DNA of 41,117 nucleotides. It comes from Acidobacteriaceae bacterium (lineage in GTDB: Bacteria > Acidobacteriota > Terriglobia > Terriglobales > Acidobacteriaceae). The stretch spans positions 1-41,117 of the forward strand of contig JASHNS010000083.1 of the NCBI GenBank assembly GCA_030041515.1, given 5' to 3'. The position numbers and the translations under genes are program-made. The notes below the pieces were generated by a model. That model had not been told where the DNA came from and made no database searches. It was given only the letters and a program-made list of their open reading frames with translations. Positions 12,895 through 31,714 of this stretch are shown one piece after another (positions within the stretch are counted from its first letter, which is position 1; every line of letters starts with the position of its first letter).

Positions 12895-14931
12895 ATGAGT
12901 TCTTCCATATCCGAACAAAGCGCGGGCCAAACCGCTGGCCGAATCCTCGCAGCACCCACCTCTTCCTGGAGCCCGTCCGGAACGGGCCCCGTCGACCCGC
13001 AAAGCCTGGAAGCCTGGGTGGAGGATCGGCTCGCCCGTCACCGCGCGGCACTGGATGGGCTGACGTCAGCGGCTGCGCCGCGTACCCTCGACAATACCCT
13101 GCGCGCGTTCGATGACGCCGTCGCCGAACTGGCGGTCGCCGGTGCTGAAACCGGACTGCTGCACAGCGTTTGCGAGTCAAAGCCGGTGCGTGACGCGGCT
13201 CAGGAGCTGTTGCAGAAGATCGCGCAGGCAGGCGTCGAGCTTTCTCTCAACCGCGATGTCTACCGGGCGCTGGCCCAGGTCGATGCGACCACAGCCGACA
13301 GCGCCGCCAGGCATTATCTCGACCGCACACTGCTCCAGTACCGCCTGGCGGGCGTGGACAAGGACGACGCTGCGCGGGCACGCATCAGGGAGTTGCAGGA
13401 TCAGGCTACGCTGCTGAGTCTCACCTTCGCGCGCAACGTCCAGGAAGGAGGCAATCGCGTGGAGGTTCACGACGCGCGGGAACTGGATGGCCTTCCGCCC
13501 GATTTCCTGGCTGCGCATGCGCCGGACGCAGACGGAAAGATCATCCTGACCACCGATTTTCCGGATTACCTGCCGGTGATGACCTTTGCGCGTTCCTCCG
13601 ATCTCCGCCGGCGGATGTTCCTGGCCTATCAGACGCGAGCGTATCCCGCGAATCGCCAGGTGCTGCTCGACCTGCTGGCGGTTCGCCAGGAGATGGCGAC
13701 CATCCTGGGCTTCGCGCACTGGGCTGATCTGGCGACGGCGGACCAGATGATGGAATCAGCGGCGAACATGCAGGCCTTCCTCGACGACCTCGATCACGCC
13801 AGCCGGGCGGGTGCGGAGAAAGAATATGCCATGCTGCTCGCGTTCGCGCAAACGGTCGATCCGGAAATGAAGCAAATCGATAATGCCAGCCGCGGCTATT
13901 GGCTGGAGCAGTACCGCCGCTCCGCATTCGACTTTGATTCGCAATCGGTGCGGCCATTTTTTCCCTATGCCCGCGTCGAAGCCGGCGTGCTCGAGACGGC
14001 GGAGAAACTCTTCCAGGTAAAGTTCCGGCGCATCGAGAAGCCTGACGTGTGGAGCGCCTCGGTGAGTGCCTGGGAGGTCTGGGACGGAACGGAGCTGGCT
14101 GGGCGCTTCTACCTGGACATGCATCCCCGCGAAGGCAAGGACAAATGGTTCTCCGCACACCCGTTGGTGCCAGGGGTTCGCGGACGCCAGTTACCCGAAG
14201 CTGCGCTGATCTGCAATTTCCCCGAACCCAAAGATGGGAATCCCGGTTTGATGCAGTACTCCGACGTGGTGACGTTCTTCCACGAATTCGGGCACCTGAT
14301 GCACGCGCTGCTGGGCGGCCGACAGGAATGGGCCGGGATCAGCGGCATCTCAACCGAGGGCGACTTTGTCGAGGTTCCCTCGCAAATGCTCGAGGAGTTT
14401 TTCCGCGATCCGCGGTTGCTGGCGCGCTTCGCGCACCATTATGAAAGCAACGAGCCCATTCCCGCCGAGGTGGTCCTGAAGATGAATCGCGCAGGTGCTT
14501 TCGGTCGCGCCGATTGGGTGCGGACGCAGCTCTTCTACACCACGTACTCGCTGAAAACGCACGCGGTCGATCCTGCGACGCTCGACCTGGACGACCTTCT
14601 GCGCAGCCTCTACACCCGCTTCCTGCCCTACGCTTGGATCGAGGGCAATCGCATGTACGCGAGCTTTACGCATCTGACGGGCTACTCCTCGAACTACTAC
14701 ACGTACCTCTACGACAAGGTGATCGCCCTCGACTTCTTCAGCCAGTTCCCGCGCGAGGCGCTGCTCGATTCGCCCGTCGCCATGCGCTACCGTCGCGCCG
14801 TGCTGGAGCCCGGCGGCTCGATGCCCGGCCGCGAGATCGTGCGCGAATTTTTGGGCCGCAACCAGTCGAGCGACGCGTTTACGGCGTGGGTCGGCGAAGA
14901 ATTCCAGCCCATGAGCGCTGCCTATGCATGA
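12895..14931 (+). CDS. M3-family zinc oligopeptidase
   Basis: A 678-residue thimet-oligopeptidase/oligopeptidase-A-like protein that cleaves short peptides. The zinc site FHEFGHLMH is at about residues 462-470, and the third ligand lies in the downstream GDFVEVPSQMLEEF helix. The preceding ALICNFPEP block and FYLDMHPREGKDKWF are family-typical, as is the substrate-channel motif GYSSNYYTYLYDKVIALDFF near the end. The length matches the family. ATG 12895 has AAGAGG (12882-12887) 7 bases upstream. No Sec or lipoprotein signal is convincing, although the first 30 residues are Ser/Ala/Pro rich, so a cytoplasmic location is favoured. Confidence 0.95.
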   Translation: MSSSISEQSAGQTAGRILAAPTSSWSPSGTGPVDPQSLEAWVEDRLARHRAALDGLTSAAAPRTLDNTLRAFDDAVAELAVAGAETGLLHSVCESKPVRDAAQELLQKIAQAGVELSLNRDVYRALAQVDATTADSAARHYLDRTLLQYRLAGVDKDDAARARIRELQDQATLLSLTFARNVQEGGNRVEVHDARELDGLPPDFLAAHAPDADGKIILTTDFPDYLPVMTFARSSDLRRRMFLAYQTRAYPANRQVLLDLLAVRQEMATILGFAHWADLATADQMMESAANMQAFLDDLDHASRAGAEKEYAMLLAFAQTVDPEMKQIDNASRGYWLEQYRRSAFDFDSQSVRPFFPYARVEAGVLETAEKLFQVKFRRIEKPDVWSASVSAWEVWDGTELAGRFYLDMHPREGKDKWFSAHPLVPGVRGRQLPEAALICNFPEPKDGNPGLMQYSDVVTFFHEFGHLMHALLGGRQEWAGISGISTEGDFVEVPSQMLEEFFRDPRLLARFAHHYESNEPIPAEVVLKMNRAGAFGRADWVRTQLFYTTYSLKTHAVDPATLDLDDLLRSLYTRFLPYAWIEGNRMYASFTHLTGYSSNYYTYLYDKVIALDFFSQFPREALLDSPVAMRYRRAVLEPGGSMPGREIVREFLGRNQSSDAFTAWVGEEFQPMSAAYA

Positions 14932-15257: not shown

Positions 15258-16493
15258 ATGCTCCAAGCAGTTCGATACTTCTTTCTTTGCTTCGCTGTGC
15301 TCGCCGGCTCTGCGCTCGCGCAGCAGCCCAGCGCGCCGGGCCAGCTCGCCACGCCGTACGTCGTCCTGGTTTCCCTCAATGGTTTCCGTTCCGACTACGC
15401 GAAGAAGTATGGCGCCACGCACCTTCTGGCCATCGCCGCGCACGGAGTCAGCGCGCCTGACGGCATGATCCCCGCCTATCCCTCCGAAACCTTTCCCAAC
15501 CTCTACACGATCGTCACCGGCCTGTACCCCGAGCACCACGGCATCGTCGCCGATGCGTTCTACGATCCCGCGAGAAAGGAAATGTATCGCGGCAGCGATC
15601 CGAACACCTCCGCCGACGGTTCCTGGTACGGCGGTGTACCGCTCTGGTCGCTCGCGGAGCAGCAGGGGCTGCGCACCGCATGCCCTGCATGGCCCGGCTG
15701 TGAGGCAGAAATCGCAGGGGAGCGGCCTACGTACTCCCCGCGCGCTTCCCTTTCCGACACGCGTCGCATCCAGCAACTCCTCGCATGGTTGCGCCTGCCA
15801 GACGTGAGACGTCCCCACCTCATCGCTATTTCATTTTTTGAGGTCGAGAATGCTGCCCGCGGTTCCGGCCCTGACAGCCCGCAGACCGCCGCCGTCGTCC
15901 GCCACGTCGATGCCCTGATCGGCACGCTGGAACGCGGTCTCGCCGCGCTGCACCTTCCCATCGACCTGATCATCGTTTCCGATTACGGCATGGCGCAGGT
16001 CGAAGGCTCCTGGATCAACCTCGCCGCATACGCTCCGCTTGCCGGGCTCAACCCCGTTGGCTCGCTGCTCTACGCGCCCACTGAAGCCGCCGCCAACTCT
16101 ACGTACCAAAAGCTCAAAGCCGCCGACGCGCGTTTCATGGTCTATCGTCGCGACAAATTGCCAGCCGAGCTGCACGCCCGTGGCAATCCCCGCATCGGCG
16201 ATCCGGTCATCGTGGCGCGCGGGCCCTATGCTGTTCACGCGCTGACCGTCGACGCGAAACCCTCGCCCGGCATCGATGGTCTCGACCCATTTCTTGTGCC
16301 CCAGATGCGCGGCATCTTCTACGCGCAAGGACCCAACATTCGCCCAGGCGTCACGCTGCAGCCCTTCGAGAACGTAAATATCTATCCTCTGATCGCGGAA
16401 ATTCTGGGTCTCAAAGCCCCGCCGTCAGATGCCAACGCCAACATTCTGAGCGGAATTCTGATTTCAGTGCCGCCCCCGCACCTCAGCCGTTGA
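15258..16493 (+). CDS. Exported NPP/alkaline-phosphatase-superfamily protein with degenerate metal site
   Basis: A 411-residue homologue of bacterial nucleotide pyrophosphatase/phosphodiesterases, with a Sec signal peptide (1-22, cleavage near ALAQQ). Family blocks are kept: VVLVSLNGFRSDY (35-47), PSETFPNLYTIVTGLYPEHHGI (75-96) with nucleophile-position Thr78, WPGCEAEI, and the C-terminal FENVNIYPLIAEILGL. The metal ligands are not. Asn41 replaces the first Asp, Glu197 and Arg201 replace the Asp and His of the D-x3-H pair, Tyr243 follows Asp242 where the family has Asp-His, and Asp340 replaces the last His. Only Thr78 and Asp242 remain. It is therefore probably not an active phosphodiesterase of the usual two-zinc type. 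It overlaps nagA tail to tail by 11 bases. Start ATG 15258 gives the signal peptide directly. Confidence 0.88.
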   Translation: MLQAVRYFFLCFAVLAGSALAQQPSAPGQLATPYVVLVSLNGFRSDYAKKYGATHLLAIAAHGVSAPDGMIPAYPSETFPNLYTIVTGLYPEHHGIVADAFYDPARKEMYRGSDPNTSADGSWYGGVPLWSLAEQQGLRTACPAWPGCEAEIAGERPTYSPRASLSDTRRIQQLLAWLRLPDVRRPHLIAISFFEVENAARGSGPDSPQTAAVVRHVDALIGTLERGLAALHLPIDLIIVSDYGMAQVEGSWINLAAYAPLAGLNPVGSLLYAPTEAAANSTYQKLKAADARFMVYRRDKLPAELHARGNPRIGDPVIVARGPYAVHALTVDAKPSPGIDGLDPFLVPQMRGIFYAQGPNIRPGVTLQPFENVNIYPLIAEILGLKAPPSDANANILSGILISVPPPHLSR

Positions 16494-17661
16494 ATGTCAC
16501 CGCGTCGCTCACGCACGGCCGCCCCCGCAGAAAAGTCTCCAGCACTTCGTTCTTCGGTGAAAGTACAGCGATATCCGCGGAGCGGCCGGCAGCGAGCGAG
16601 CCAATCTCCGCGTCCAGTCCGGTCATACGTGCGGGATTCCGCGTGGCAAGGCCGACGGCTTCGATCAGCGTCGCGCCCGTGAATTCAGCATAGTTGCGAA
16701 CTGCGCGATCGAGAGTCAGAGTGCTGCCCGCCAGGGTATTCGCATCCCCGGCTACGCAGCGGCCGTTCTGGACGCGCACATCCATTTCGCCCAGCCGATA
16801 ATTCCCATCCGGCATCCCAGTGCCGGCCATCGCATCCGTCACCAGCATTGCCCGATCCGGGCCCTTGGCGCGGCGGAACAACCGCACCGCGGCAGGATCC
16901 ACATGCAGCCCGTCGCAGATAATCTCGGCGAAGAGCCGGTCGTTGGTCAGCACCTCAGCCAGCAAACCCGGATCCCGATGGTCGAATGCGCGCATCGCAT
17001 TGAATGTGTGCGTGGCGCTGATCGCGCCGGCCGCGATGCCCCGGCGAGCCGCATCGCCCTGCGCATTGCTGTGTCCCAGGCTGATCCGCACCCCGAGCCT
17101 GGTCGCATGTGCGATCGTCTCTTCCGCACCAGGCAGCTCCGGTGCGATAGTCATCAGGCGGATATGACCTTCTGCGGCCTGCCACAGGCGGTCAAAGAGC
17201 GAGACGGAGGGGACAAGCAATTGGCTCTCCACGTGGCAGCCGCGCTTATGCGGCGACAGAAACGGCCCTTCCAGGTGAATTCCCACTGGCCGCGCGCCCT
17301 CCAGCGGACCGCTCATCCGCTTCGCCAGGCCGGCGAGCGAGCGCAGCAGCGTGTCCAGAGGTGCGGTGACCGTGGTGGCGAAATACGCGCCCACGCCGCG
17401 CCGCGCGAGGAACCCGCCAATATGATTCAGCGCCGGCTCCGTCGCTTCCATCGCGTCATGTCCGCCGCTGCCGTGGATGTGCACGTCGAAGAACGCCGGA
17501 ACCAGCGTGCAGTCAGCGAAATCCACGTGCCGGTCGGCGGGCGCCTCCGCGCCGTCTCGGCTGGCGATGGAAACAATCGCGCCATCGTCGATCGCGATGA
17601 CAGGCTTGTCAATCACCTCAGCAGGCGTAAGCAGGCGGGCAGCGGTCAGGATCGTTTGCAC
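16483..17661 (-). CDS. nagA: N-acetylglucosamine-6-phosphate deacetylase
   Basis: Removes the acetyl group from GlcNAc-6-phosphate, feeding amino-sugar and cell-wall recycling into glucosamine-6-phosphate. The 392-residue amidohydrolase has FFDVHIHGSGGHD (about 55-67, metal HxH), GIHLEGPFLSPHKRG with the metal Glu, ISLGHSNAQ, ATHTFNAMRAF, ICDGLHVDP and the catalytic Asp in LVTDAMAGTGM. GTG 17661 is preferred because it begins the first strand (VQTILTAARLLTP) and leaves 46 bases after the preceding gene; the in-frame start at 17766 would overlap that gene. No nagB or GlcNAc transporter is nearby. A partial ROK kinase at the right edge is too far away to be linked. Confidence 0.95.
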   Translation of the reverse strand: MQTILTAARLLTPAEVIDKPVIAIDDGAIVSIASRDGAEAPADRHVDFADCTLVPAFFDVHIHGSGGHDAMEATEPALNHIGGFLARRGVGAYFATTVTAPLDTLLRSLAGLAKRMSGPLEGARPVGIHLEGPFLSPHKRGCHVESQLLVPSVSLFDRLWQAAEGHIRLMTIAPELPGAEETIAHATRLGVRISLGHSNAQGDAARRGIAAGAISATHTFNAMRAFDHRDPGLLAEVLTNDRLFAEIICDGLHVDPAAVRLFRRAKGPDRAMLVTDAMAGTGMPDGNYRLGEMDVRVQNGRCVAGDANTLAGSTLTLDRAVRNYAEFTGATLIEAVGLATRNPARMTGLDAEIGSLAAGRSADIAVLSPKNEVLETFLRGRPCVSDAVTFNG

Positions 17662-17707
17662 AGACCAGACTACTACCCCGGAGAGCGCCCCGGCTGCACG
17701 AAACTCC

Positions 17708-18193
17708 TTACTGCTGCGGGCTGACCGCCGGTGCGGGAACCGCCACGCCGTGCGCCTTGCGAGCATTCGGGGCGATGTGAGCGCGTGCGTGGCTCACGTG
17801 TTGCATTGCGCGCCCATGCGCGTTCGGCCCAGCAGCCAGAGGAGCTGAAGCCGGCGCGGCCACATGGACTGCCGACGCGGCGCCCATTCCCTGTCCAGGC
17901 AGCACCAGCACCGGCGGCACGGGCACGTGTCCGGGATGATTCTCTCTGGCATGATCGACTGAGCCAACGACAATGACCGCGCAAACCAGGCCGGCGGCAG
18001 CGACGCCGAGCGTCGGAAACGTGTATCGCGGCCAGCGAGCGAACCAGGAGATCCGGGAATCCGTGACCCGAGTGGCGGCCAGGTGGGCGAGAATGCGGCC
18101 TTCCAGCCCTTCAGGAGGTGTGGCTGAGCCGGCAGCGCGCAGCGCCGCATCGACGCGCTTCTGCCACTTGTCTGTTTGGGGTTCGTACTTCAT
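17708..18193 (-). CDS. Single-pass membrane protein coupled to ECF sigma factor, candidate anti-sigma
   Basis: A 161-residue protein whose ATG overlaps the sigma-factor stop by 4 bases (ATGA), so the two are translationally coupled. It has a soluble N-terminus of about 50 residues (TDKWQKRVDAALRAAG..PPEGLEGRILAHL), one hydrophobic helix at about 55-77 (FPTLGVAAAGLVCAVIVVGS), and a Pro/Ala/His-rich tail outside the membrane. This layout fits an anti-sigma factor. However, the HxxxCxxC zinc-binding anti-sigma motif is absent and the only Cys is in the membrane helix. Function is inferred from gene order only. Translation probably depends on the upstream sigma gene. Confidence 0.75.
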   Translation of the reverse strand: MKYEPQTDKWQKRVDAALRAAGSATPPEGLEGRILAHLAATRVTDSRISWFARWPRYTFPTLGVAAAGLVCAVIVVGSVDHARENHPGHVPVPPVLVLPGQGMGAASAVHVAAPASAPLAAGPNAHGRAMQHVSHARAHIAPNARKAHGVAVPAPAVSPQQ

Positions 18194-18783
18194 CGTGAAA
18201 TGCCTTCCTGTTCGAGCAGGCCGGAGAGCTCGCGTCGGGCGCGAAAAATGCGCGAGCGGATGGAAGATTCGGTGGTGCCGAGCACGGCGGCAATTTCTGC
18301 GGTGCTGAGTTCCTCGACAGCGGAGAGCAGCAGAGCTTCGCGCTCGCGGTGGGGTAAACGGTCGATCAGTGCCATGATTCGCCCGCGCTCCTCCATGGAA
18401 ATCACGGACTGGTCAGCGCCGGGGTCGCCCGACGGCAAAACACGCGCGTGGTCGGAGAGGTCCTCGTTTTCAGGGCGAGTTTTGGCGCGGCGCTTGCGGT
18501 CCAGAACGATGTTCCAGACAATCCGCACCAGCCACACGCGGTAATCGCGAATTTCCCCCAGCCGGGACTGATGTTTGAGCACGCGCAGAAACGCTTCCTG
18601 CACCGCGTCCTCGGCCTCGGCGGCGTTGCGCGTCACCGAGAAGGCCACGCGATAAAGCGCCGTTGAGTACTCGGCGACCAGGGCGGTGATGGTCTGGCTC
18701 GTATCCGTCTGGCTCTTTTCCAAGGCTCTGGCAATCGGAGCAGGTGCTGACCAGCCGGCGAGCTGACCTTGCAGGCAACTCAT
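18190..18783 (-). CDS. ECF-type RNA polymerase sigma factor
   Basis: A 197-residue sigma-70 family member with regions 2 and 4 only. Region 2 spans ALYRVAFSVTRNAAEAEDAVQEAFLRVL to DYRVWLVRIVWNIVLDRKRR. A short acidic linker follows. Region 4 is LIDRLPHREREALLLSAVEELSTAEIAAVLGTTESSIRSRIFRARREL. The start at ATG 18783 has GGAGG 9 bases upstream in the transcript. The first 30 residues are not part of the fold. It is followed immediately by a membrane protein in translational coupling, the usual arrangement for an ECF factor held by an anti-sigma. It is divergent from a methyltransferase gene; ECF factors often drive their own promoter, but no clear ECF-type promoter pair was found. Confidence 0.93.
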   Translation of the reverse strand: MSCLQGQLAGWSAPAPIARALEKSQTDTSQTITALVAEYSTALYRVAFSVTRNAAEAEDAVQEAFLRVLKHQSRLGEIRDYRVWLVRIVWNIVLDRKRRAKTRPENEDLSDHARVLPSGDPGADQSVISMEERGRIMALIDRLPHREREALLLSAVEELSTAEIAAVLGTTESSIRSRIFRARRELSGLLEQEGISR

Positions 18784-18907: not shown

Positions 18908-19690
18908 GTGCGGCGGCAGCGGTGGTTTGAGATTCACGATCAGCCCTGGTTCCCTGGTTCTCTGCGCGACCTCACCACGGAGGCGCTGGAAGCGGTGTGG
19001 AACGAGAACCACACCTATCGGGCGATCGCAGGAAAGCTGCGGGAAGCTGTGGCGCGGGCGGGCGCTGCGCAGATCGTCGATTTGTGCTCCGGCGGCGGAG
19101 GGCCATGGCTCGGACTCTATGACGATGTGTCCGATGGGCGTCCGCTGCGGGTTTGGCTGACCGATCTCTATCCGAATGCTCGGCTTTTGCGGGAACAGCT
19201 GCCAGAGGGCCTGGGGGCGCGGGCGGAGCCTGTGGATGCCAGTGCGGTTCCCAGGGAACTGAGGGGATTCCGAACCCTCTTTTCGTCCTTCCATCATTTC
19301 GATCCGCCAGCGGCGCGGGCAATGCTCGAAGATGCGTTCCGCCGCCGGGAAGGCATTGGGGTTTTCGAGGGCGCGCGCCGGAGTCCGCTGACGATAGCGC
19401 TGGTCGCCGGAGTTCCCCTCCTGGCGATCCGATGTGCCCTCGCAGCGCGGCCCGTCCGCTGGCAGCGAATTGTGTGGACATGTCTCCTCCCAGTGGTCCC
19501 AGCCGTGCTTTGGCTGGACGGCATTCTCTCCTGCCTGCGCAGTTATTCCATCGACGACCTGCGCGAGCTGACGGGTGGGCTCACCTCGCCGGAGTACCGG
19601 TGGGAGATTGGCGAAGCGCAGAGTGGCCACATCCCGATCCGCTACCTCATCGGGGTGCCGGAAATCAGGGGTACCCCCCCGTCGCTGTGA
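18908..19690 (+). CDS. Class I SAM-dependent methyltransferase with hydrophobic insert
   Basis: A 260-residue protein. Residues about 1-50 include WNENHTYRAIAGKLREAV. The SAM-binding strand and loop are IVDLCSGGGGPWLGLY (about 55-70), LTDLYPNA is the acidic second strand, and FRTLFSSFHHFDPPAARAML is motif IV/V. After this come two strongly hydrophobic stretches (LTIALVAGVPLLAIRCALA and WTCLLPVVPAVLWLDGILSCL) before the usual LRSYSIDDLRELTGGL ending. This suggests membrane association or a lipid-like substrate, though the substrate is unknown. Start GTG 18908 is the only start before the fold. A purine-rich GGGGGAGGG lies about 12 bases upstream. Confidence 0.8.
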   Translation: MRRQRWFEIHDQPWFPGSLRDLTTEALEAVWNENHTYRAIAGKLREAVARAGAAQIVDLCSGGGGPWLGLYDDVSDGRPLRVWLTDLYPNARLLREQLPEGLGARAEPVDASAVPRELRGFRTLFSSFHHFDPPAARAMLEDAFRRREGIGVFEGARRSPLTIALVAGVPLLAIRCALAARPVRWQRIVWTCLLPVVPAVLWLDGILSCLRSYSIDDLRELTGGLTSPEYRWEIGEAQSGHIPIRYLIGVPEIRGTPPSL

Positions 19691-30659: not shown

Positions 30660-30765
30660 AAGAAGCCGAGTTCTGCGTGATTTGATCTTATCAATCAGAT
30701 ATTTATTTCGTGAAACTGAAATCGTTTTCCACGGCTAACCTTCGTGTGGCACACGGGTTGCGTTC

Positions 30766-30795
30766 TTGCCAGGTCTTGCACATAAAGACTAGGAT
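30766..30795 (+). promoter_or_regulatory. Candidate sigma-70 promoter for the GvpL/F-like gene
   Basis: TTGCCA (30766-30771), an 18-base spacer, then TAGGAT (30790-30795). It leaves an untranslated leader of about 115 bases before the ATG at 30920. A 29-codon out-of-phase frame (ATG 30855) overlaps that start; nothing else supports it as a gene. Confidence 0.4.
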
Positions 30796-30919
30796 ACGGG
30801 GCAGTTCAGTGAGGCTCCTCCGCAGTTCGGCGCCTACCCGAGCCCAGAAAAGCCATGTATACCCCCGAAAAGCTGCTGTTCCTAACCCTCTCACCTATCA
30901 GCATGCGGAGCGACTTTAT

Positions 30920-31714
30920 ATGGCGTGGTATGCCTACTGCATAACAGAAAGACAGGCCTTTCCGGAACTGCTGCGGCACCGGAAACCGATTCCAATGGAA
31001 ACCGTAACCGGAGTACAGGGCAATCAGGTTTTCCTTTATCCAGCCAGTGACTTAGCGGTAATCGTCAGCGAATGCTCCTCGACAGAAACCCTTACCCAGC
31101 AAGCCGGCATGGAGCATGCGCGGGTGGTATCGGATTGTTTCAAAACTTCCACGGTGCTGCCATTCCGGTTCGGGACGGTGTTTGCGGACGACGAGGCGCT
31201 GCGCCGGTCGATCCGGTCGAACCAACGGCAGTTTGTGACCAACATTGAACGCCTGCGCGGCAAAGCGGAGATGCACCTGAAGGTGGTGCTGGACGACTGC
31301 TGCCGCGAGCAGGTGAAGCGGTACAACGCGCCACCGACGCCGACGACGGGGCGGGCGTATCTGTCGAATTTGCGGGAGAACGCAGCTCTGCAGCGGGAGC
31401 GTCAGACGAAAGCACGCGCGGTGACGGTGCAGATGCATCGGATGTTTCTGCCGCTGGCGGAGGAAGTCAGCTGCCGGAGGCTGGACACGGGCAAGATGCT
31501 GCTGGATATCGCGCACCTGATCGATTCGGGTGCGGTGGAGCGGTACCAGAACAAGTACTCCAGCGCTTCGCTGCTGATGAAAGACTGCCAGATGCAGCTT
31601 TCAGGGCCGTGGCCCCCCTATCACTTCGTGCACCGGCTGACGCATCACGCGGCAGCGCCAGCAGCACCGGCAGTGGCGGTTCGGCCGGTGGCAGGCCTGG
31701 CGGCGTCGGCCTAG
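30920..31714 (+). CDS. Orphan GvpL/GvpF-family protein
   Basis: A 264-residue protein resembling gas-vesicle GvpF/GvpL. Its landmarks are AWYAYCITERQAFPEL (start), SDLAVIVSECSS, ARVVSDCFKTSTVLPFRFGTVFADDEALRRSI with the family hallmark PFRFGTVF, GKAEMHLKVVL, and the C-terminal DIAHLIDSGAVERYQNKY and LSGPWPPYHFV. An Ala/Pro-rich tail follows. No gvpA, gvpN, gvpK or other gas-vesicle gene is in the window. The ATG at 30920 is chosen because GGAG (30907-30910) is 9 bases upstream and the family begins here; the open frame continues upstream without conserved sequence. A terminator follows the gene, so it is probably monocistronic. Confidence 0.82.
   Translation: MAWYAYCITERQAFPELLRHRKPIPMETVTGVQGNQVFLYPASDLAVIVSECSSTETLTQQAGMEHARVVSDCFKTSTVLPFRFGTVFADDEALRRSIRSNQRQFVTNIERLRGKAEMHLKVVLDDCCREQVKRYNAPPTPTTGRAYLSNLRENAALQRERQTKARAVTVQMHRMFLPLAEEVSCRRLDTGKMLLDIAHLIDSGAVERYQNKYSSASLLMKDCQMQLSGPWPPYHFVHRLTHHAAAPAAPAVAVRPVAGLAASA

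Follow-up and report, generated by a model that had tools for sequence, protein, structure and literature searches.

The window analysed here, a stretch of 41,117 nucleotides from an Acidobacteriaceae bacterium (contig JASHNS010000083.1), contains a gene for an apparently exported protein of the NPP phosphodiesterase family. An earlier note, made from the letters of the DNA alone, had reported that most residues of its metal site were replaced in an otherwise clean frame. The question raised by this locus is whether such a gene is decaying, encodes an enzyme with a different metal chemistry, or is retained as a protein without the original catalysis.

The gene and its catalytic positions

The gene is a single clean reading frame of 411 aa, and re-reading of the ORF and the sequence ruled out an artefact of frame or coordinates. 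The protein belongs to the NPP family by profile, matching PF01663 over residues 35-326 with 218 bits (cut-off 23), and its N-terminus, judged by eye, is a hydrophobic signal-like stretch that ends in ALA-Q. A role as a defence-system protein was ruled out, as PADLOC gave no hit. The only other PF01663 match in the genome scored 31.1 bits (cut-off 23) and lies in a 699-aa frame on a different contig, which rules out an intact close NPP serving as a backup in the same genome.

The closest solved structure by alignment was the Xanthomonas NPP 2gsn. In the phmmer alignment, residues N41, T78, E197, R201, D242, Y243 and D340 of the window protein were paired with D, T, D, H, D, H and H, so that T78 and D242 alone are kept out of the seven di-zinc residues and the other five are changed; the site is not intact. 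Asp99 occupies the place of the phosphate-binding Asn, which is likewise lost. The claims of the earlier note that five zinc ligands had been replaced (by Asn41, Glu197, Arg201, Tyr243 and Asp340) and that Thr at the nucleophile position was kept are both borne out by this alignment; the change at position 99 had been missed. In a study of rat NPP3 (PMC6052110), the zinc ligands D168, T206, D326, H330, D373, H374 and H483 are termed strictly conserved, and N227 forms a hydrogen bond to the phosphate. N227 was mapped to position 99 through the alignment and its equal spacing from the nucleophile. Overall, 6/8 catalytic columns are changed in the window protein versus 3/54 other conserved columns.

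The fold blocks, which the earlier note had described as kept, are present: in addition to the profile match, the motif blocks align to 2gsn, and a structure model built from a 15-row alignment (mean pLDDT 83.6, pTM 0.84) superimposed on 2gsn with a TM score of 0.82 by query and 0.88 by target, which places it in the NPP fold. Residues 77-80 of the model, the nucleophile loop, had pLDDT values below 50. A model of the intact sister L037 made from these 15 sequences reached a mean pLDDT of 89.9 with no segment below 50. The model gives mild support to a nucleophile loop that may lack its metal anchor.

Table 1. Features of the NPP locus and its surroundings, in positions of the window. Residues are numbered along the 411-aa protein.
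Feature	Position	Strand	Remarks
Peptidase M3 gene	12895..14931	+	Syntenic neighbour, selection control
Degenerate NPP-family gene	15258..16493	+	411 aa; sole strong homologue of its own genome
Signal-peptide-like N-terminus	15258..15320	+	Judged by eye from sequence
Asn41	15378..15380	+	Relatives have zinc ligand Asp
Thr78, nucleophile position, kept	15489..15491	+	From alignment
Asp99	15552..15554	+	Relatives have phosphate-anchoring Asn (PMC6052110)
Cys142 and Cys148 (first and last codon)	15681..15701	+	Possible disulfide, inferred
Ser192	15831..15833	+	Tyr in intact members
Glu197	15846..15848	+	Relatives have zinc ligand Asp
Arg201	15858..15860	+	Relatives have zinc ligand His
Asp242 (kept) and Tyr243	15981..15986	+	Relatives have zinc ligand His at 243; from alignment
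Asp340	16275..16277	+	Relatives have zinc ligand His
Amidohydrolase gene (nagA-like)	16483..17766	-	Convergent; syntenic neighbour, selection control
Sigma-70 family gene	18190..18783	-	Syntenic neighbour, selection control

Recurrence of the substitutions and number of origins

A set of 196 distinct homologues from the window's family and class was aligned after removal of 41 duplicates; the fragments G462, G327:C47, G457:C71 and G663 were left out. Homologues are labelled L, genomes G and genera g, with g1 the genus and f1 the family of the window. Each homologue was scored at eight catalytic positions (41, 78, 99, 197, 201, 242, 243 and 340), with Asn or Met at 99 counted as unchanged (Met was present in 25 homologues). 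No change was found in 177 of the 196, one change in 5, and three or more in 14, hereafter called degenerate, a distribution which argues that the catalytic losses of the window protein are not due to chance. All 14 degenerate members belong to f1: the window protein, L002 and L016 in g1, L076 in g58, L023 in g43, and L104, L252, L121, L112, L118, L135, L137, L256 and L254 in g9. The single changes were D41N in L005, D41E in L249, H340Q in L247, H340D in L250 and H340M in L263. L005 (genome G003) is itself a g1 member that lies outside the window's clade with its remaining catalytic residues intact, and may represent an early step of its own.

Asp99 was found in 13/13 degenerate members with a residue at this position, representing all five degenerate groups, versus 0/182 of the others. 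Arg201 was present in 11/14 degenerate members and 0/182 others, and the change from His to Arg occurred in 4/5 groups; the exceptions were Val in L023, Trp in L252 and Pro in L256, and His201 itself was gone in all 14. His340 was lost in 13/14, and Tyr192, conserved among intact members, in 14/14. The second zinc site was lost to varying degrees. Among up to 54 other conserved columns, each degenerate member had 2 to 9 changed. Fisher contrasts of catalytic against other conserved changes gave p < 0.05 in 13/14 members (L002, p = 0.059); as the catalytic columns had served to define the degenerate set, these contrasts are partly circular. A binomial estimate for the parallel N99D and H201R changes gave joint values of 2e-7 to 3e-4 across the settings used; it is post hoc, made after the columns had been seen, and takes Asn as the starting state throughout, the nearest intact codon in g43 being ATG.

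The same positions bear on the reading that metal chemistry was changed and not abandoned, with Asp99, Glu197, Asp242 and Asp340 holding Mg, Mn or Ca, or with one metal kept, to support a different or weaker reaction. The window protein does have these four acidic pocket residues, Asp242 is kept in 14/14 degenerate members, and L002 retains all four residues of the second site (D41, T78, D242 and H243). Against this, most degenerate members place Arg at the former ligand position 201, and 6/14 also at 243. The acids are inconstant: some members have Gly or Val at 197, and some Ala, Gly or Cys at 340. Thr78 is replaced by Gly, Ser or Asp in all degenerate g9 members that have a residue at this position (8/8). 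We consider a changed metal chemistry unlikely. The absence of Thr78 from these g9 members also means that the kept nucleophile of the window protein is probably not the reason for its retention.

Trees were built without the pocket columns. A careful tree comprised 68 rows of 140 and a larger tree 86 rows of 196, the latter without L159, L255 and L257; L047 was left out elsewhere, as were L150 and L159 from an earlier tree. The degenerate members occupied four or five separate places, each beside intact relatives from the same genus. In the 68-row tree, the window protein grouped with L002 and L016 (100/100), adjoining the intact g1 member L004 (98/90); L076 grouped with intact L074 (100/90), the first six g9 degenerate members with intact L078 (100/97), and L023, on a long branch, with intact L079 (99/97). 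In the 86-row tree, L252 and L256 joined the g9 group (100/94), and L254 took a different place in g9. It formed a four-member group (100/96) with the intact L130 and L150 and with L250, in which His340 alone is lost; L254 and L130 paired at 97/69.

A single origin, with the altered segment passed on by horizontal transfer or gene conversion, would account for the same substitutions across four genera, and around several of the degenerate genes outside g1 no synteny was seen. It would also fit the unusual similarity at codons 89-109 between the window gene and L076 of g58 (0.82, versus 0.70 for intact L004), identities that are noisy over so short a segment, and the merely weak rejection of the g1 and g58 members as one clade (p-AU 0.033). 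Other tree tests oppose it: the first 11 degenerate members as one clade were rejected (delta lnL 224, p-AU 2e-18), as were the two g9 degenerate groups as one clade (p-AU 0.003). At codons 186-211 the degenerate copies were at most 0.03 more alike across groups than over the whole gene, again a noisy measure, and in g1 the gene has kept its synteny (see below). A single origin is in our judgement very unlikely.

The Asp99 codons share their third base with nearby intact genes, being GAT versus AAT in g1 and GAC versus AAC in g58; in g9-b, one of the two g9 groups, GAC stands beside three AAC and one AAT. The nearest intact relative in g43 has Met (ATG) at 99, a codon from which Asp cannot be reached in one step. 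A local exchange between g1 and g58 at codons 89-109 would merge two origins and leave four. Because the rejection of a joint g1 and g58 clade is weak and codons 89-109 are alike, the sequences point to at least four conversions within one family, and probably to five.

Cys142 and Cys148 are the sole cysteines of the window protein past the signal-like stretch, which makes a stabilising disulfide between them plausible. Cys148 was present in 10/14 degenerate members, from 4/5 groups (not g58), versus 5/182 others. Cys142 accompanied it in 15/15 proteins and is also common among intact members. The intact relatives of g9-b already carry Cys148, so that in this group Cys148 may precede the loss of the metal site. 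The g9 relatives that already have it are L250 (G467), in which His340 alone is lost, L249 (G471), with D41E, and L130, L150 and L253.

Synteny, selection and retention

The NPP gene was found in 12/12 g1 genomes examined. On one side it is flanked in 11/11 relatives by the amidohydrolase gene, here called nagA-like, and on the other side in 10/11 by the M3 peptidase gene; the contig of the eleventh, G006, ends there. In the window, the NPP frame runs into the convergent nagA-like gene, the two sharing 11 bases at their 3' ends (16483-16493). As the flanking genes are shared by the g1 relatives, the degenerate gene in g1 is the positional orthologue, converted in place, and not a spare paralogue. 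A duplicated paralogue was ruled out in this genus, the gene being in the same place in 11/11 relatives as far as the contigs reach.

Outside g1, the nagA-like gene was present in 2/8 stretches around degenerate genes (G367 and G401) versus 6/8 around intact genes. The stretches of G268, G409 and G053 were long enough to include it and did not, and some others were short. Because synteny outside g1 is patchy, in-place conversion is claimed for g1 alone. In the other genera, conversion of the orthologue is suggested by the tree and by the finding of one match at 1e-40 in each degenerate genome, these genomes being partly incomplete.

Two further frames near the locus, 18908-19687 (+) and 17708-18193 (-), have relatives at the same place in most g1 members where the contig reaches, and neither has a Pfam match at 0.001. 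The latter comes immediately after the sigma-factor gene and may encode a regulator of the sigma factor. Elsewhere in the window, 30710-31711 (+) is a gas-vesicle family gene, GvpL/GvpF (PF06386, 197 bits).

Selection was estimated with a custom codon model on a g1 tree of 12 rows and on 12 g9 rows; 6 of the latter were degenerate, a set that excluded L252, L254 and L256. In g1, dN/dS was 0.057 for intact branches and rose to 0.120 for degenerate ones (lnL gain 12.95), and fixing omega at 1 on the degenerate branches was worse by 175 lnL. The corresponding values in g9 were 0.072 and 0.120 (lnL gain 8.0), with omega = 1 worse by 348 lnL. Removal of 12 pocket columns left the degenerate omega nearly unchanged (g1 0.115, g9 0.121). 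The close degenerate pairs L112/L118 (omega 0.26) and L135/L137 (0.105) both rejected 1. The three g1 neighbour genes, fitted on an assumed, simplified tree, showed no shift between intact and degenerate branches: nagA-like 0.087 vs 0.083, sigma 0.076 vs 0.078, and M3 peptidase 0.049 vs 0.053 (G006 missing). A rate increase of the whole lineage in g1 was thereby ruled out.

No internal stops were recorded in the search tables for any of the 14 degenerate copies, two of which (L016 and L256) run off the end of their contigs. Under neutral drift, the probability of a stop-free frame was about 4e-4 on the fitted branch of the window gene and 7e-3 on a shorter branch of 0.3. Because omega is well below 1 and a stop-free frame is improbable under drift, the degenerate protein is kept by selection despite its lost di-zinc site. 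Constraint is partly relaxed, as dN/dS is about doubled and reaches 0.26 in the closest degenerate pair; the roughly twofold relaxation in g1 is confined to the NPP gene among the four genes tested.

This relaxation is what would be expected if the gene had become useless and were heading slowly for loss. The window protein shares 65 percent identity with L002 and 70 percent with L016, versus 70 to 93 percent for the other genes compared with these two genomes. A match at 1e-40 was found in 143/398 family genomes and in none of the other 255; a genome can therefore lack or lose the gene altogether. Slow decay is opposed by the strong rejection of omega = 1 in two lineages and in the recent pairs, by 14 copies with no internal stop in the tables, and by the recurrence of the same swaps, and we regard it as quite unlikely. 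The proposal of the earlier note, a retained pseudoenzyme and not random decay, is thus supported by dN/dS far below 1 with its neighbour controls, by the lack of internal stops in the tables for all 14 copies, and by swaps that recur across lineages; the search for recurrence among acidobacterial homologues, which that note had recommended, gave 14/196 degenerate members with Asp99 and Arg201 confined to them.

A proposed route and comparison with known systems

The reading we favour, with a probability of roughly 0.64, is that an exported NPP phosphodiesterase has turned repeatedly into a retained pseudoenzyme, in which an Asp/Arg network replaces the metal core, often together with a Cys pair. 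In NPPs, positions 197, 201 and 340 are ligands of the phosphate-binding zinc, and 41, 78, 242 and 243 are ligands of the zinc that activates the Thr. Loss of the phosphate-binding zinc would leave carboxylates unpaired, and the guanidinium of Arg201, joined in 6/14 members by that of Arg243, could fill the vacated site. Arg would pair in putative salt bridges with Asp99 and the acids at 197 or 340. A Cys142-Cys148 disulfide would often assist, and the fold could thereby be stable without metal. A second, non-catalytic role in binding or as a scaffold, shared with the intact orthologue, is also proposed; it would explain both the retention of the gene without a close second copy and its recurrent conversion. 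A more specific version, which we offer tentatively, is that these changes form a repeatable adaptive path from di-zinc enzyme to metal-free protein through His201 to Arg, Asn99 to Asp and often a disulfide, with a binding function kept or gained.

Under the favoured reading of a repeatedly formed pseudoenzyme, one gene has seemingly been disarmed four or five times, with an intact sister species at hand each time. Because each conversion has its intact sisters, direct tests are possible of whether catalysis was dispensable, which second function retains the protein, and whether exchange of a buried zinc for an Arg-Asp pair is a general route. If the more specific version, the adaptive path, is true, the acidobacterial NPPs of this family are a natural replicated experiment in the birth of pseudoenzymes, in genomes that have no close second copy. 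It is also unsafe to label such genes automatically as phosphodiesterases.

Pseudoenzymes are usually regarded as old paralogues of single origin. No publication on NPP-family pseudoenzymes or their repeated origin was found in the literature searched, most subscription papers lying outside its scope. Pseudoenzymes as such are already known; what appears new is an NPP-family pseudoenzyme that arises repeatedly with the same swaps, in g1 demonstrably in place.

The Xanthomonas NPP structures (2gsn, 7mw8 and 7n1s) resemble the window protein in fold, length and motif blocks, 2gsn with 34 percent identity and the TM score of 0.82 by query given above. In the alignment, 2gsn retains all seven residues of the zinc site as well as the phosphate-binding Asn, whereas the window protein lacks 6/8 of these. 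The vertebrate ENPP1-7 (e.g. NPP3, PMC6052110) share the phosphodiesterase domain family with the window protein, which differs from them at 5/7 residues and at the Asn called absolutely conserved in that paper. With pseudoenzymes generally (review PMC10211241), the window protein has in common a retained fold from which the catalytic motif is gone; its family differs from them in having apparently made several pseudoenzymes from one gene by the same swaps, and in g1 in place.
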